Assembly: GCF_030651915.1 (NCBI RefSeq)
Contig: NZ_JAUSBV010000010.1
Location: forward strand, 496,001-560,000
Source: Parvibaculum sp.
Lineage (GTDB): Bacteria; Pseudomonadota; Alphaproteobacteria; Parvibaculales; Parvibaculaceae
Length of the DNA stretch: 64,000 nt
Direction: 5' to 3'
Part shown: in pieces, positions 10,852-37,838 of the stretch
Numbering within the stretch: position 1 is the first letter of the stretch
Layout of the letters: each line of letters begins with the position of its first letter
The notes under the pieces: model-generated
The model's database searches: none
Told to the model about the DNA's origin: nothing
What the model saw: only the letters and a program-made list of their open reading frames with translations
Program-made: the position numbers and the translations under genes

Positions 10852-10881
10852 TTGACAGATCTCTGAGAACCAAACTAGAAC
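10852..10881 (+). promoter_or_regulatory. lexA promoter with SOS box
   Basis: The -35 TTGACA (10852-10857), an 18-base spacer and TAGAAC (10876-10881) form the promoter. GAACCAAACTAGAAC (10867-10881) is a perfect alphaproteobacterial LexA box, GAAC-N7-GAAC, covering the spacer and the -10. LexA would block RNA polymerase directly, the standard autorepression. A matching box controls the 45-aa gene at 35908-36045. Confidence 0.88.
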
Positions 10882-10953: not shown

Positions 10954-11667
10954 ATGCTGACACGCAAGCAACACGAACTCCTGATGTTCATCCATGAGCG
11001 AATCAAGGAGAGCGGCGTCTCCCCCAGTTTCGACGAAATGAAAGATGCGCTGGACCTGCGCTCCAAGTCCGGCATTCATCGCCTGATTACAGCGCTTGAG
11101 GAGCGCGGCTTCATCCGCCGCCTTGCTCACCGGGCCCGCGCGCTCGAAATTCTCAAGCTCCCCGAGTCGGCATCGCCCAGCCTCGCAACAATGCGCGGCA
11201 AGGGTTTCTCGCCCAGCGTTATCGAAGGCGGCGGGCGCAGCAAAGCGACCAGCCGCGACCTCGCGCCGGCACGCAGCGCCGGCGAAACAATGACACTGTC
11301 GGTGATGGGTCGTATCGCCGCCGGCACGCCCATCGAGGCCTTACAGGAAGAAAGCCATCAGGTCAGCGTGCCGCTCAATCTGCTCGGCTCTGGCGAACAC
11401 TACGCGCTCGAGGTCAAGGGCGACTCGATGATTGAGGCCGGTATTCTCGATGGCGACACGGTACTCATCCAGCGCTGCGACACGGCAACGAGCGGCGATA
11501 TTGTCGTGGCGCTCGTCGATGGCTTTGAGGCAACGCTGAAGCGGCTGCGCAAGAAGGGTGCGTCGATTGCGCTTGAGGCAGCCAATCCCGCCTATGAAAC
11601 GCGAATCTTCGGGCCGGACCGCGTCAAGGTCCAGGGCAAGCTTGTCGGTCTGTTGCGCCGTTACTGA
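10954..11667 (+). CDS. lexA: SOS repressor LexA
   Basis: A 237-aa repressor and self-cleaving protease. The winged helix-turn-helix covers about 1-70 ([17 protein letters not shown]; helix [17 protein letters not shown]). A linker of about 40 residues follows. The latent peptidase has the cleavage pair Ala123-Gly124 in GRIAAGTP, Ser158 in KGDSM and Lys196 in FEATLKRL. The linker is a little longer than in E. coli, as is usual in this class. It has its own SOS box upstream and converges with comEC, 2 bases between the stop codons. Confidence 0.97.
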
Positions 11668-31996: not shown

Positions 31997-32130
31997 GGCA
32001 CTTTTGCTCCTTTTCCGGTTGAACCTCCGCGGGGAGTGAACGACTCGACGTCGCACCGGACCGACTAACCCTATGTTTTCCTTGGTAAAAAGGAAGTGGG
32101 TTTGCCGAACCCCGCGTGTGGAATGGCGCC

Positions 32131-32159
32131 TTGATAGGCGCAAAACGGGCAAAAAGCAA
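32131..32159 (-). promoter_or_regulatory. Putative rpsB promoter
   Basis: On the minus strand TTGCTT (32159-32154), 17 bases, TATCAA (32136-32131). The spacing is ideal and the site lies between the dnaE terminator-like hairpin and rpsB. The leader it would make contains the S2 translation-control region; I see no recognisable conserved leader motif in it. Confidence 0.5.
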
Positions 32160-32168
32160 GCGCCGACA

Positions 32169-32199
32169 GGCTGTTAGCACAGCAGCCCTGAAAACAGCC
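32169..32199 (-). terminator. Hairpin downstream of dnaE
   Basis: GGCTGTT (32169-32175) and AACAGCC (32193-32199) are inverted copies; the dnaE stop is 37 bases away on the minus strand. No tight T-run follows, though CTTGCTTTTT comes within 20 bases. A moderate candidate for dnaE termination. Confidence 0.4.
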
Positions 32200-32210
32200 G
32201 TACCCCCCCT

Positions 32211-32239
32211 CTGTCACAAAACTGTCATAAAACTGTCAT
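32211..32239 (+). promoter_or_regulatory. Triple Pho-box-like site (copy 2), overlapping the dnaE stop codon
   Basis: Three CTGTCAY heptamers at 32211, 32222 and 32233 are separated by AAAA, each pair matching the PhoB box consensus. The dnaE stop codon (32238-32236) lies inside the last heptamer. 35 bp (32204-32238) are identical to the complement of 8486-8520. In the orientation typical for activation it points into the 3' end of dnaE; on its other side lies the rpsB promoter. Confidence 0.6.
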
Positions 32240-35200
32240 ATATCCTGGACCTCGACGATGCCGGGGATCGATTTGACGGCGCCGCGGATCTGCGGCGTCA
32301 CCCGGTAGCGGCCCTTGAGGCGCAGCTCGACCTCCCGGCCGCCCTCGCCCATCAGCACCAGCTGGACCAGACCCTTGCCGCGCTCGCCGAGACGGGCCTT
32401 GATCGGCTCCAGCGAGGCCGCGTCGTCGAGAAAGATCTTCAGCCCCTCGCCGGCGTCCTTGACCGTCTCGTCGACGCTGCGGATCGACTGGGCGCGCAGC
32501 TTGACCTCCTCGCCGGCGCGGTCGATCTCGACGCCGATGACGACCGAACTGCCGGGTTCCATCAGATCGCGGGAACGGGAGAGGACTTCCGAGAAGACGA
32601 CGATCTCGAACTGGCCCGTGGCGTCCGACAGGCTCAGAAAGGCGAAGGGGTTGCCCTTCTTCGATTTGCGCTCCTGCTTGGCGGTGACGGTGCCGGCGAT
32701 GAAGCCGGCTTGCATGCCCCTGGCGAGCAGGTCGGCGAGGGTCGAGACGCCGGAACGCTTCAGCGAGGTTCTGTAGTCATCGAGGGGATGGCCGGAGAGG
32801 TAGAAGCCGACGGCGTTGAACTCCTCGGTGAGACGCTGCATCGCCTGCCAGGCCTCGACGGCGGGCAGCGCGGGGGCGGAGGCGGCGGCGCTCTCCTCGC
32901 CGAAAAGGCTGACCTGCTGGCTCTCGCGGTCCTGCGCCGACGCATTGGCGGTGCCGAGGACCAGATCGACCGCGGCCATGACCTGGGCGCGGTTGGCATT
33001 GAGGCAATCGAAGGCACCGGCGCGGGCCAGATTTTCGAAGGCGCGCTTGTTGATCATGCGCGGATTGATGCGGCGGGCGAAATCGAACAGGTCGCGGAAG
33101 GGGCCGCCCTCGCGGCGGACCTCGACCAGATGCTCCATCGCCTGACGGCCGACATTCTTGATCGCGGCCAGCGCGTAGAGGATTTCGCCGTCGGCGACGC
33201 CGAACATCGCTTCCGAGCGGTTGACGCAGGGCGGGCGCACCGCGATGCCGAGCCGTTCGGCTTCCTGTTTGAAGAGACCGAGCTTGTCGGTGTTGCCGAG
33301 ATCGAGGCTCATCGAAGCGGCCAGGAACTCGACCGGATGGTTGGCCTTCATCCAGCCGGTCTGGTAGGCGACCAGCGCGTAGGCGGCGGCATGCGACTTG
33401 TTGAAGCCGTAGCCGGCGAACTTGTCGACCAGCTCGAAAATCTCGGAGGCCTGTGTCTTGTCGACACCCTTGGCGACCGCGCCGGTGACGAAGCGTTCCT
33501 TCTGCGCCTCCATCTCGGCCTTGATCTTCTTGCCCATGGCGCGACGCAGCAGGTCGGCTTCGCCAAGCGAATAGCCGGACAGGATCTGCGCGATCTGCAT
33601 CACCTGCTCCTGATAGATGATGACGCCGTGGGTTTCCTTCAGCACCGGCTCGAGCAGCGGATGCAGATAGTCGGCCGCCTCGCGGCCGCGCTTGCGGGCG
33701 ACATAGCTGGGAATGTTGTCCATCGGGCCGGGACGGTAGAGCGCCACAAGCGCGATGATGTCCTCGAAGCGGTCGGCATCGAGCTTCCTGAGCACATCGC
33801 GCATGCCCGAACTTTCAAGCTGGAACACACCGACGGTTTCACCGCGCCCCAGCATCTGGAAGGTCTTTTCATCCGCCAACGGAAGATTGAGCAGATCGAT
33901 CTCGATGTCGCGGCGGGCGACCAGCTTCACCGCCTGATCGAGAACGGTGAGGGTCTTCAGACCCAGAAAATCGAACTTCACGAGGCCGGCCGGCTCGACC
34001 CATTTCATGTTGAACTGGGTGACCGGCATGTCGGAGCGCGGATCGCGGTAGAGCGGCACCAGCTCGTCGAGCGGCCGGTCGGCGATGACGACGCCTGCCG
34101 CGTGGGTCGAGGCATGACGGTAGAGGCCTTCAAGCCGCAGGCCGATTTCGAGCATACGGGCGACGCCTTCGTCCGACGCCTGTTCTTCGCGCAGGCGCGG
34201 CTCACCCTGGATTGCTTCGGCGAGCGTGACGGGCGCGGCCGGATTGTTGGGCACCAGCTTGCAGAGACGGTCGACCTGACCATAGGGCAATTGCAGCACA
34301 CGGCCGACGTCGCGCAGCACGGCGCGGGCCTGAAGCTTTCCGAAGGTGATGATCTGCGCCACGCGATCTTCGCCGTAGCGCTGTTGCACATAGCGGATCA
34401 CCTCGTCGCGGCGGTCCTGGCAGAAGTCGATGTCGAAGTCCGGCATCGAGACGCGTTCGGGGTTGAGGAAGCGTTCGAAAAGCAGGCCAAAGCGCAAGGG
34501 ATCGAGGTCGGTGATGGTCAGCGCCCAGGCCACAACCGAACCGGCGCCGGAGCCACGGCCCGGGCCGACCGGAATGCCCTGCCCCTTCGCCCATTTGATG
34601 AAGTCGGCAACGATCAGGAAATAGCCGGGGAAATCCATCTTGATGATGACGTCGAGCTCGAAACGCAGCCGAGCGCGATAATCTGCTTCCGGGGCGACGG
34701 TTTCGAGGGTGGCGAGGCGCTGCGTCAGGCCTTCCTCGGCCTGGCGGCGCAACTCGTCGGCCTCGCTGGTGCCGGCGGCGAATTTCGGCAGGATCGGATC
34801 GCGGGTCAGCGGACGAACGGCGCAACGGCGCGCAATCTCGACGGTGTTTTCGAGCGCCTCGGGCAGGTCGGCGAAGAGTGCGGCCATTTCGGCCTGCGTC
34901 TTGAAACGATGTTCGGGCGTCAGGCGGCGGCGCTCGGCCTGTACGACATAGGCGCCTTCGGCAATGCAGATCAGCGCGTCATGGGCCTCGTAATCGGCCT
35001 CGGCGACGAAATGGGGCTCGTTGGTGGCGACCAGCGGCAGGCCGTGGGCATAGGCAAGGTCTATCAGCGCCGGTTCGGTCTGGCGCTCACGGGGCTGCCC
35101 ATGGCGCTGCAACTCGACATAGAGGCGGTCGCCGAAGGTCTGCTTGAGGCTCAGCAGCAATTCTTCCGCCGCCGGGCGCTGGCCGGCTTCGAGCAGGCGG

Positions 35201-35649
35201 TTGACGACGCCATCGGGACCGCCGGTGAGGCAGATCAGGCCTTCATGGTGGGCCGCCAGCAGCGCCAGCGGCACATAAGGCGGTTCGCCGGGCTCGGGGC
35301 CGAGAAAGGCCCGGCTCGAGAGCTTCATCAGGTTCAGGTAGCCCTGCTCGTCCTTGGCGATGAGGGCCAGCGTGCCGGCCGGCTCGTGGCGCAGGGGGCC
35401 GCGGGCGGGTTCCTCGCCTTCGTCCAGCAGGATCGGCAGGGTGCAGCCGACAATCGGCTGAATGCCGGCCTCGGAGAGGGTTTCGGAAAACTCCAGCGCG
35501 CCGAAAAGATTGGCCGTGTCGGTGATGGCGACGGCCGGCATGCCGTCGGCCTTGCAGAGCTTCGGCACTTCCTTGACGCGGATCGCGCCCTCCAGCAGCG
35601 AATAGGCGGTGTGGAGGCGGAGATGGATGAACTGGGGCGAGTCGGGCAT
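32236..35649 (-). CDS. dnaE: DNA polymerase III alpha subunit
   Basis: A 1137-aa replicative polymerase. The N-terminal PHP domain starts at FIHLRLHTAYSLLEGAIRV. The palm carries GRGSGAGSVVAWAL and the catalytic Asp pair in PDFDIDFCQDRRDEV. The C-terminal half has the helix-hairpin-helix region (GVDKTQASEIFELVDKFAGY) and an OB-fold (GTVTAKQERKSKKGNPFAF). Length and order are those of DnaE1, not of the SOS-type DnaE2. ATG 35649 gives MPDSPQFIHLRLH. Its upstream region contains two tandem hairpins and the SOS-controlled 45-aa gene. Confidence 0.97.
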   Translation of the reverse strand: MPDSPQFIHLRLHTAYSLLEGAIRVKEVPKLCKADGMPAVAITDTANLFGALEFSETLSEAGIQPIVGCTLPILLDEGEEPARGPLRHEPAGTLALIAKDEQGYLNLMKLSSRAFLGPEPGEPPYVPLALLAAHHEGLICLTGGPDGVVNRLLEAGQRPAAEELLLSLKQTFGDRLYVELQRHGQPRERQTEPALIDLAYAHGLPLVATNEPHFVAEADYEAHDALICIAEGAYVVQAERRRLTPEHRFKTQAEMAALFADLPEALENTVEIARRCAVRPLTRDPILPKFAAGTSEADELRRQAEEGLTQRLATLETVAPEADYRARLRFELDVIIKMDFPGYFLIVADFIKWAKGQGIPVGPGRGSGAGSVVAWALTITDLDPLRFGLLFERFLNPERVSMPDFDIDFCQDRRDEVIRYVQQRYGEDRVAQIITFGKLQARAVLRDVGRVLQLPYGQVDRLCKLVPNNPAAPVTLAEAIQGEPRLREEQASDEGVARMLEIGLRLEGLYRHASTHAAGVVIADRPLDELVPLYRDPRSDMPVTQFNMKWVEPAGLVKFDFLGLKTLTVLDQAVKLVARRDIEIDLLNLPLADEKTFQMLGRGETVGVFQLESSGMRDVLRKLDADRFEDIIALVALYRPGPMDNIPSYVARKRGREAADYLHPLLEPVLKETHGVIIYQEQVMQIAQILSGYSLGEADLLRRAMGKKIKAEMEAQKERFVTGAVAKGVDKTQASEIFELVDKFAGYGFNKSHAAAYALVAYQTGWMKANHPVEFLAASMSLDLGNTDKLGLFKQEAERLGIAVRPPCVNRSEAMFGVADGEILYALAAIKNVGRQAMEHLVEVRREGGPFRDLFDFARRINPRMINKRAFENLARAGAFDCLNANRAQVMAAVDLVLGTANASAQDRESQQVSLFGEESAAASAPALPAVEAWQAMQRLTEEFNAVGFYLSGHPLDDYRTSLKRSGVSTLADLLARGMQAGFIAGTVTAKQERKSKKGNPFAFLSLSDATGQFEIVVFSEVLSRSRDLMEPGSSVVIGVEIDRAGEEVKLRAQSIRSVDETVKDAGEGLKIFLDDAASLEPIKARLGERGKGLVQLVLMGEGGREVELRLKGRYRVTPQIRGAVKSIPGIVEVQDI

Positions 35650-35765
35650 GCCCCATTGTCGGGGTCCCGGGTGTGCGAGTCACGCGGCAGGTGCCGAAGG
35701 ATTGGCCAAAGCTGTGGACAACCCCGGTTCGGCAACTATCAAGCATCGAGTCAGCGCCCCCGCCC

Positions 35766-35788
35766 CGAAATTTGCGAGGCAAATTTCG
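35766..35788. repeat. 10-bp hairpin upstream of dnaE (first of two)
   Basis: CGAAATTTGC (35766-35775), loop GAG, GCAAATTTCG (35779-35788), perfect. A similar hairpin follows at 35824-35848. The 258-bp gap between the 45-aa gene and dnaE otherwise shows no gene. A near-DnaA box (TGTGGACAA) lies at about 35713. Confidence 0.5.
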
Positions 35789-35823
35789 ACTGGCCCTTCG
35801 CTTGCGCTCCGGCATTCGGCGCC

Positions 35824-35848
35824 CGAAAAGGCCCACTTGGCCTTTTCG
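35824..35848. repeat. 10-bp hairpin upstream of dnaE (second of two)
   Basis: CGAAAAGGCC (35824-35833), 5-base loop, GGCCTTTTCG (35839-35848), perfect. It shares the outer CGAAA/TTTCG form with the hairpin at 35766-35788 and with the one at 40022-40045. It may end the 45-aa gene transcript before dnaE, or be part of a repeat family. Confidence 0.5.
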
Positions 35849-35907
35849 TTTGCGTTCCGCAAATCGCACCTCACCCCCAAGCGGCAGGTGGGACGCGAGA
35901 TCGCGCC

Positions 35908-36045
35908 TCAGCCGATCAGGGCCTCGGCGATGCCGACCCAGGCACCGGCCGCCCAGATGAAGGCGGCAACCGAGATCAGCGCTGCCACATCCTGAAGCCA
36001 GTCGCCGGCTTCGCTGTCTCTTGTCCGGTTCCACATTCCGCGCAT
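35908..36045 (-). CDS. Small SOS-controlled membrane protein, 45 aa
   Basis: A complete 45-codon gene: ATG 36045-36043, stop TGA 35910-35908. The N-terminal part is charged (starts MRGMWNRTRDSEAGDW); residues about 19-42 form one hydrophobic helix (DVAALISVAAFIWAAGAWVG). GGAGGG lies 6 bases before the ATG, an excellent ribosome binding site. A perfect LexA box is at 36064-36078 and a one-mismatch box at 36090-36104, inside a promoter with TTGACA. Known SOS-induced small membrane proteins such as SidA of Caulobacter (division inhibitor) and TisB of E. coli are of this size and type; I see no sequence match to either. A function in division arrest or membrane effects is inference. It sits upstream of dnaE on the same strand. 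Confidence 0.8.
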   Translation of the reverse strand: MRGMWNRTRDSEAGDWLQDVAALISVAAFIWAAGAWVGIAEALIG

Positions 36046-36063
36046 CGCTCGCCCTCCAGATGT

Positions 36064-36115
36064 GTTCCTGTAATGTTCTCATCCGGAGTGTTGCTTGTTT
36101 GTTCTCGCGTGTCAA
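36064..36115 (-). promoter_or_regulatory. SOS promoter of the 45-aa membrane protein gene
   Basis: On the minus strand: TTGACA (36115-36110), 17 bases, AACACT (36092-36087), then GAACATTACAGGAAC (36078-36064), a perfect GAAC-N7-GAAC LexA box lying just after the likely transcription start. A second box with one mismatch (GAAC-N7-CAAC, 36104-36090) overlaps the spacer and -10. Two boxes predict tight repression. The rest of the 300-bp gap 36046-36345 shows no other gene I can support. Confidence 0.82.
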
Positions 36116-36345
36116 GAGGGGGGCGTGACCCGGCGCAGCGCGCAACTGCCCGAGGTCCGATTTTTCAGTCCATGGATACCGGCTTGAGCGGGTATGACAA
36201 TTTCTGGATTTGGCCGAGCATGCGATCAAGCGCCATTTCGCTTTTCCCTGAATTGCGAAATCGCTTCATATCTTTGATTCCGGCGCGTCTTCGAACGACG
36301 ATCCGTCCCCTCTGCGTGAAAGGAGCCACGTCGCCTGGAAACGCT

Positions 36346-36606
36346 TTAGCGGCGCTGGAGCCTCGGGCTAAAGGCCGCCCGAGCCGGGCGGGCCGCAGCA
36401 GGGCCCTTCGCCGATCGCCCCGCCGGATGAAGCAGCAGCGCATATGCAAACAGCATCACCGCGACCGCAATCCAGCCCCAAGTCGCCAGACCCGCATCGG
36501 CGGATACCAGCGGCGCCATGCGATCAACCAAGGCCGCAAAGGAACCATGGATGTCGTCGGCGACAAGTTGTTGCGTTTCCCCCCTCAAGGATTCGCCCTC
36601 CCTCAT
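36346..36606 (-). CDS. Small hypothetical membrane protein, 86 aa
   Basis: One clear membrane segment (about 42-60, ATWGWIAVAVMLFAYALLL) follows a soluble N-terminus of about 40 residues; the C-terminal 25 residues are Arg/Ala/Pro-rich and would lie in the cytosol by the positive-inside rule. ATG 36606 has GGGAG close upstream. It lies 102 bases past the SDR stop on the same strand, so it may belong to that operon. I do not recognise the family. Confidence 0.5.
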   Translation of the reverse strand: MREGESLRGETQQLVADDIHGSFAALVDRMAPLVSADAGLATWGWIAVAVMLFAYALLLHPAGRSAKGPAAARPARAAFSPRLQRR

Positions 36607-36708
36607 TATCTCCCACGGGGTAATGCTAAGCCGATTTCCCGACTCGATGAAAGGGTCTTTCGCTGTTGCGCCGCAGCAATCCTGCGCGCGCCGAACCGAC
36701 GGCAGCCG

Positions 36709-37422
36709 CTACCAGGGAACCGGCTTGCCATGATGGTCGAAAAAGCCGCCGGATTGTTCGGGGCCGAGGGCGCCGATTACGGCCAGAAGACGGGCTGCGG
36801 CGTCGGCCGGAGACTGGGTGTCGCGCCCGATGCGGGCAAAGGGCGCCGACAGGCCGGTCGCGACCGTGCCCGGGTGGAGGGCGACGCAGAGGGCCTGCGG
36901 GCGCTTGCGGGCCAGTTCGATGGCGGCGGTACGCACCAGCTGGTTGAGAGCCGCCTTCGAGGCACGGTAGCCGTACCAGCCACCCAGACGGTTGTCGCCG
37001 ATGCTGCCGACTCGCGCGGACAGGGTGGCGAAGACCGACCGCCCCTCGCGCGGCAGAAGCGGCAGCAGATGCTTCATCAGCAAGGCCGGGCCGATCGCGT
37101 TGACCGCGAAGGCATGGGCCAGCGCCGCCGGATCGAGGTCGCGCCAGCTCTTTTCAGGCCGGCAGGTTTCGTCATGGAGGAAGCCGGTCGCGTCGATCAC
37201 CAGGCGCAACTCGCCGGATGCGGCGATACCGGCTGCCGCCACCGCGATGCTCGCCTCATCCAGAAGATCGAGCAGTGGCGCCGTGCGGCGGCCGAGCGCG
37301 ACGACCCGGGCAAAGGTCCCATCCGCATGCAGACGATCGAGCAAGGCGCCGCCAATACCGCCGCCGGCACCGACAACGACCGCCACCGCATGCGACGGCG
37401 TGGCAACCGGTTGACCGGTCAT
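36709..37422 (-). CDS. SDR-family oxidoreductase (C-factor-like)
   Basis: A 237-aa Rossmann-fold protein. The cofactor motif is [13 protein letters not shown]; the active site is Ser in ATLSARVGS and YRASK (Tyr-x3-Lys), followed by [14 protein letters not shown]. The short loops and [11 protein letters not shown] form resemble the CsgA/C-factor branch of SDRs. ATG 37422 overlaps the stop of the DCC gene (ATGA), which fixes the start. Substrate unknown. Confidence 0.85.
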
Positions 37423-37838
37423 GCGTGCGCCCGGCCCCAAAGCCGGCCGACGAGCCATGACAATAGCGGCCGCAGCGGAAGAAACAGGCGATAGGCGCCT
37501 TCAAGCAGCAACATTCCGCCCGGCAGGCTGGCAAGACGCGCCGCCCAGCGCCAGCGCGGCAGGAGCCGCCAGATGGCAACGAAGGCCGCCGCACCCGACA
37601 GAAGCGCACCATCGGCGCTACGCACATGAAAACGCGCCATGGCCCGTTCGCGCGTCAGGCCGGGACCGAGAGGGACCGCCGAATGTGCGACATCGAGAAA
37701 ACAGAGCGCCGCCGCACCATGCTGTGCCGCATAATGCGCAATTTCGGCACGACAGAGCGGACAGGCGCCGTCGAAATAGACCGTCGCCTCGTGACCGCCA
37801 GCCCCGCTTCCGACTTCCGTTTCCGTCCGTTCCGACAT
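37419..37838 (-). CDS. DCC family (DUF393) thiol-disulfide oxidoreductase-like protein
   Basis: A 139-aa protein with the signature [17 protein letters not shown], where the DGxCxxC motif names the DCC family and resembles a thioredoxin-like redox centre. Downstream are a hydrophobic region [13 protein letters not shown] and a C-terminal amphipathic or membrane-apposed stretch ([20 protein letters not shown]). It overlaps the SDR gene by 4 bases, so the two form an operon after lolD. The family's substrate is not established to my knowledge. Confidence 0.85.

Follow-up and report, generated by a model that had tools for sequence, protein, structure and literature searches.

This study revealed that the 45-codon open reading frame (ORF) ahead of dnaE in the analysed stretch of Parvibaculum DNA (the window, 64,000 nucleotides at its full length) is, as judged from the conservation of its sequence, a real gene. 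It is likely a highly diverged homologue of sidA, probably its positional orthologue, and would encode an SOS inhibitor of the septal complex. Its place before dnaE, which the first-pass annotation had suspected of being conserved, is kept in the genus, in the family, in Caulobacteraceae and at many Hyphomicrobiales loci.

The small gene, its control region and its conservation

The SidA-like gene occupies positions 36045-35908 of the minus strand, with its ATG at 36045-36043 and its stop codon at 35910-35908. The elements previously described around it were recovered in the same order and exactly to the base, all on the minus strand and all as motif matches: a -35-like TTGACA (36115-36110), a putative LexA-type box GAACAAACAAGCAAC with one mismatch to GAAC-N7-GAAC (36104-36090), a -10-like AACACT 17 nt after TTGACA (36092-36087), a putative LexA-type box GAACATTACAGGAAC that matches GAAC-N7-GAAC perfectly (36078-36064), a presumed ribosome-binding site GGAGGG (36057-36052) and the 45 codons themselves. 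The two putative boxes are 26 bp apart, and the one-mismatch box sits between the -35 and -10 elements. The -10-like element is weak, as it shares 3/6 positions with TATAAT, and it reads AACATT in several relatives; a sigma-70 promoter scan of 35600-36300 returned no promoter. The gene for the replicative DNA polymerase III alpha subunit, dnaE (35649-32236, minus strand; NCBIfam NF004226), starts 258 bp past the small gene on the same strand, and this downstream neighbour is conserved. The presumed repressor gene lexA was identified by NCBIfam at 10954-11667 of the plus strand (TIGR00498, E 1.6e-49), and the same type of box does lie ahead of it, as had been claimed: the putative box GAACCAAACTAGAAC, a motif match at 10867-10881 of the plus strand. 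Two further frames were noted around the locus. Directly upstream of the SidA-like gene is an ORF of 86 codons (36346-36606, minus strand) that contains one hydrophobic stretch, TWGWIAVAVMLFAYALLL. On the strand opposite dnaE and the small gene there is an open frame of 1792 codons (32116-37494, plus strand), which probably just reflects the codon usage of G+C-rich DNA.

With regard to the frequency of the boxes, the window holds five perfect GAAC-N7-GAAC motifs against 2.05 expected, and at least five were obtained in 6 of 100 shuffles. Across the whole genome there are 92 (51 on the forward strand, 41 on the reverse), compared with 76 (35, 41) for a reversed-pattern control. As both counts are near chance, enrichment alone was dropped as proof, and the box is significant because it is conserved across relatives and not because of its count. 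The search for tandem pairs of two perfect boxes in the same genome returned none, since the first box of the window carries one mismatch. Elsewhere in this genome, boxes also precede ORFs matching ImuA and UvrA; these matches were made with the first 150 residues only and so score under the whole-protein cut-offs. ORFs lie downstream of the boxes at G000:C10:224518, C5:312922, C8:618785, C6:100595 and C7:162144 (L267, L269, L266, L268 and L273, respectively), where the first 150 residues gave matches to ImuA, UvrA and the TIGR04283 glycosyltransferase; two others were recognized by eye only, one resembling a cytosine methyltransferase and the other YifB/ComM.

The small ORF was found in 24/27 genomes of the genus and in 37/40 genomes of the family, including all 13 outside the genus, with a single match per matching genome. 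The three genus genomes that lack it also lack a proper DnaE N-terminus (two gave hits of 31-34% identity and one gave none). The frame evolves under purifying selection, with dN/dS values of 0.03-0.41 in 20 within-clade pairs and with 74, 24 and 155 differences at the first, second and third codon positions of within-clade pairs. The control region is conserved as well. In each of the 24 genus loci, the 130 bp ahead of the matched gene stretch contain TTGAC together with two or more boxes that deviate at no more than one position, at least one of them being perfect, and at a 70% threshold the conserved upstream columns are restricted to the promoter block. The 13 loci from other genera of the family all have a perfect box within 260 bp upstream of the match, one in 11 of them and two in the other 2; the presence of two boxes is thus a feature of the genus, most other genera of the family showing one perfect box. 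Downstream, dnaE follows on the same strand at 13/13 loci of the other genera and at 22/24 loci of the genus, the remaining 2 stopping at a contig end. Both the frame and the box, whose loss in related genomes would have spoken against the original proposal, are therefore kept.

The product is predicted to be a short protein with a single transmembrane helix, a trait of the SidA-like group. Its best 19-residue stretch, ALISVAAFIWAAGAWVGIA, has a hydropathy of 1.98, and AlphaFold2 returned one helix spanning residues 3-44 (mean pLDDT 82.8, pTM 0.44) on the basis of a shallow, 7-sequence alignment, so that both predictions agree with the single hydrophobic helix initially proposed. Counting against the SidA-like reading, a Kyte-Doolittle mean of at least 1.6 over 19 residues is reached by only 18 of 28 Parvibaculaceae proteins.

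Relation to SidA

Profile methods overturned the earlier view that the sequence shows no match to SidA. Aligned as profiles by hhalign, 28 proteins from Parvibaculaceae and 29 SidA proteins from Caulobacteraceae gave a probability of 93.6% (E 2e-7, score 30.5), and none of 200 column shuffles was as good (maximum 16.8), although such shuffles are unlike other real membrane helices and convergence readily produces alignments between short hydrophobic helices. Comparison of the Parvibaculaceae proteins with 15 Hyphomicrobiales proteins gave 95.5% (E 1.4e-8, shuffle maximum 21.0), whereas SidA aligned directly with the Hyphomicrobiales proteins at only 62.4% (E 7e-5, shuffle maximum 17.4). As the direct score is lower than either of those obtained via the Parvibaculaceae, this family forms a bridge between both groups.

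The window protein gave no match to the SidA equivalog model of NCBIfam (NF033228), a weak match at E<=1 was obtained for 2/22 genus proteins, and the best score, reached by 1 of 8 genus proteins, was 16.2 bits against a cut-off of 35 bits. Given that this cut-off is missed, the window protein is not filed as a SidA equivalog. The missed cut-off, the shortness and hydrophobicity of the sequences, the low direct score between SidA and the Hyphomicrobiales proteins and an identity to SidA of 23% over 26 aligned columns, which counts against homology, could all be explained by convergence, that is, by an unrelated SOS-controlled small membrane protein having arisen at the same place. We consider this very unlikely, since the locus, the strand, the neighbour and the type of box are all shared with SidA and the column shuffles never equalled the real alignment. 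Moreover, the family profile matched once in each of the 37 matching genomes, and ordinary membrane helices in these genomes therefore do not match it. Homology with SidA thus remains the preferred reading: the window gene combines the profile homology of its family, a same-strand place upstream of dnaE, a GAAC-N7-GAAC box and a short product with a single predicted helix, the features by which the SidA-like group is recognized here.

A search with the SidA model over 289 genomes of the class, with Caulobacter vibrioides as the control genome that matches it, gave four weak matches, none of the 289 genomes exceeding the cut-off. One of these four, L069, corresponds to a 31-residue ORF before dnaE and behind GAAC repeats. 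The model matched at E<=0.05 in 97/119 genomes of the family of L069, and over the cut-off in 71; we took this family to be the Caulobacteraceae because Caulobacter, Phenylobacterium and Caulobacteraceae loci have the same kind of ORF. The hits in G310, G213 and G088 were taken as chance, there being no DnaE match in the stretch and no perfect box nearby. At L070, one of the rejected loci, three boxes with one mismatch each share a strand.

The 30 best SidA-model matches of the Caulobacteraceae were examined as loci. At all 30, dnaE follows sidA on the same strand, and a box is present no more than 120 bp ahead of sidA, perfect at 20 loci and with one mismatch at the other 10. In Caulobacter, dnaE is CC1926, according to PMC1839093. 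The interval from the sidA stop to the start of the DnaE match, which begins at residue 4 or 7, is 41-87 bp at these 30 loci, as opposed to the gap of 258 bp in the window. SidA (NF033228) and the window protein are both short proteins with a single helix, a predicted one in the window protein, and are encoded behind LexA-type GAAC boxes, on the same strand as and upstream of dnaE, and they have in common a core pattern around (D/E)xxALxS...F. The window protein is longer, with 45 residues against 29, of which about 12 extra residues are at its N-terminus.

The target of the box and its reach among alphaproteobacteria

In PMC3323433, dnaE is counted as reported to be SOS-regulated in Caulobacter crescentus and recurs in the alphaproteobacterial comparison. 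It could accordingly be proposed that the boxes regulate dnaE itself and that a long 5' region merely includes the small ORF as a leader or by-product. No site resembling a terminator was detected between 35600 and 36300 on the minus strand, and the short interval between sidA and the DnaE match at the 30 Caulobacteraceae loci would make co-transcription possible. However, the distance from the last perfect box to the ATG is kept at 26-41 bp in the 21 genus loci measured, whereas the distance to dnaE varies: at L279 (G002) and L280 (G008), about 1.5 and 1.9 kb separate the SidA-like gene from dnaE, and boxes and small gene stay together. This constant spacing beside a variable distance points to the small gene as the target. 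In addition, purifying selection acts on the frame at the protein level, and the product of Caulobacter sidA is described as a division inhibitor in PMC4211646. That the boxes regulate dnaE itself and the small ORF is a leader or by-product thus appears unlikely, and the putative LexA box, as read from the arrangement of the loci, probably serves the small gene and not dnaE; read-through from the small gene into dnaE may occur.

The reach of this arrangement was assessed at dnaE loci drawn with the DnaE of the window, limited to the best 80 of the named matches, which numbered at least 591. Within these best 80, a Rhodobiaceae MAG came closest (81%), followed by Tepidicaulis marinus (69%). The initial pointer to Rhizobiales was close: Tepidicaulis, the named relative, is a member of the Parvibaculaceae, within the order Hyphomicrobiales in the NCBI taxonomy. 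Relatives upstream of dnaE, which it had been suggested to seek there, are indeed present at many Hyphomicrobiales loci, as found by profile searches. Among the 72 loci of the best 80 that have at least 500 bp upstream, 41 have a perfect sense-strand GAAC-N7-GAAC motif and 18 a GTTC-N7-GTTC motif, compared with control patterns at 0 (CAAG), 0 (CTTG), 4 (N6), 0 (N8), 0 (N5) and 1 (N9). A profile of 12 Parvibaculaceae and Caulobacteraceae sequences detected an upstream small ORF at E<=0.01 in 18/61 other named dnaE loci (those with 800 bp upstream, 8 from these two groups being omitted), and 0/61 for each of the antisense, reversed, farther-upstream and inside-dnaE controls; the farther-upstream control gave one locus at E 0.088.

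Box and ORF occur together. With a 25-sequence profile, a SidA-like ORF was detected in 39/41 loci with a perfect box versus 2/31 without, a result that is partly circular because the profile was built partly from loci later found. With the 12-sequence profile the figures are 24/41 versus 2/31, the comparison including 8 Parvibaculaceae or Caulobacteraceae-like loci from the source groups of the profile. The boxed loci without a profile hit, L175 and L182, have similar ORFs that score barely under the threshold, and L141 and L186 have the ORF but no perfect box. The Hyphomicrobiales ORFs before dnaE (Bradyrhizobium, Kaistia, Stappia, Phyllobacterium and others) share place, box type and sequence pattern with the window gene, but they are shorter, with about 26-38 residues, and lack its N-terminal extension. 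A second box, GTTC-N7-GTTC, lies in opposite orientation 18 bp after the start of the first at 15 loci, many of them from Bradyrhizobium (L120, L130, L134, L137, L138, L142, L143, L147, L148, L149, L170, L173, L178, L183 and L188), which sets the Bradyrhizobium types apart from the window.

The SidA-like trait is clade-limited and not class-wide. Neither a perfect box nor a convincing ORF was found at the Azospirillum (3), Skermanella, Pelagibius and Rhodospirillaceae (6) loci, and some Hyphomicrobiales loci, such as L190 (Mesorhizobium) and L176 (a Rhizobiales MAG), lack both box and ORF. When 69 families were sampled with one genome each, a perfect box was present in 9/69. At E<=0.01, the 12-sequence profile matched 4/69 and the 25-sequence profile 5/69 of these regions, one of which is only 281 bases long, and both controls matched 0/69; weak control hits at E<=1 amounted to 2 antisense and 1 reversed for the 12-sequence profile and to 3 reversed for the 25-sequence profile. 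At all 9 boxed per-family loci the best match falls on a short ORF that is located between box and dnaE and appears hydrophobic by eye, only 5 of them reaching E<=0.01 with the 25-sequence profile. Finally, a combined 26-row profile, some rows of which stem from the same genomes, gave hits at E<=0.01 in 20 of the 289 class genomes, 17 of these hits adjoining dnaE. The hits in G270 and G048, enclosed by longer frames (612 and 209 codons, respectively), were taken as chance, and that in G056, at a contig edge, was not counted. We think it probable that a LexA-controlled SidA-type brake before dnaE is ancestral in much of the Alphaproteobacteria (Caulobacteraceae, Parvibaculaceae, many Hyphomicrobiales and some further families) and not peculiar to Caulobacter, and that the "LexA-regulated dnaE" in the alphaproteobacterial SOS regulons published so far is really this small gene.

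Predicted function and its meaning

The observed homology, synteny and conservation of frame and box lead us to infer induction and division arrest. LexA would bind both GAAC-N7-GAAC-type boxes of the tandem, the first lying between the -35 and -10 elements and the second just downstream, and block the promoter, which RecA-stimulated cleavage of LexA would free after DNA damage. The 45-residue product, predicted to insert in the inner membrane as a single helix, may then, by analogy with SidA, hold the assembled septal FtsW/FtsI/FtsN complex inactive and delay division until repair. The product is accordingly likely to be an SOS-induced inner-membrane inhibitor of this complex, as far as its relationship to SidA allows a prediction.

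Small SOS-induced membrane proteins can also be toxins. TisB-type toxins have an antisense RNA antitoxin adjoining the gene. DinQ is described in PMC3567139 as a toxic inner-membrane peptide with a single transmembrane segment. A TisB- or DinQ-like toxin that depolarises the membrane, instead of inhibiting the divisome, would be compatible with the SOS control and the single hydrophobic helix, which fit toxin and inhibitor alike. Profile homology and synteny favour SidA, and searches with 22 members gave nothing better than E 0.017 in Pfam (diacylglycerol kinase, 2/22) and, apart from SidA, nothing better than 0.16 in NCBIfam, which makes a toxin highly improbable. Other searches gave best values of 0.0098 in PHROGs (in 1/26) and E 0.64 among solved structures, and nothing at E<=0.1 in PADLOC.

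Compared by description with other inhibitors, the SidA-like product resembles DidA of Caulobacter, a division inhibitor that is small, has a single transmembrane segment and is induced when DNA is damaged, but DidA has 71 residues, is SOS-independent (DriD) and binds FtsN, as stated in PMC4211646. YneA of Bacillus and SosA of Staphylococcus, SOS-induced division inhibitors from another phylum, would work alike, and YneA is reported to interact with FtsW (PMC13396833 and PMC6851548). The accessible portions of the open literature (PMC4211646, PMC12700426, PMC13384398, PMC4117421, PMC3323433, PMC1839093 and PMC9578287) contain no statement of SidA homologues outside Caulobacter; most subscription papers lie beyond this coverage, and a prior mention is possible.

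If the SidA-type gene is an ancestral brake, the damage-induced division checkpoint of nitrogen-fixing and environmental Hyphomicrobiales would become testable through one small gene, and LexA control of the replicative polymerase, as published, would take on another meaning. A family of tiny genes could then be annotated by the combination of place, box and sequence pattern. Its deep sequence variation would provide a natural map of the residues that a helix of about 30 residues needs for interaction with the divisome.
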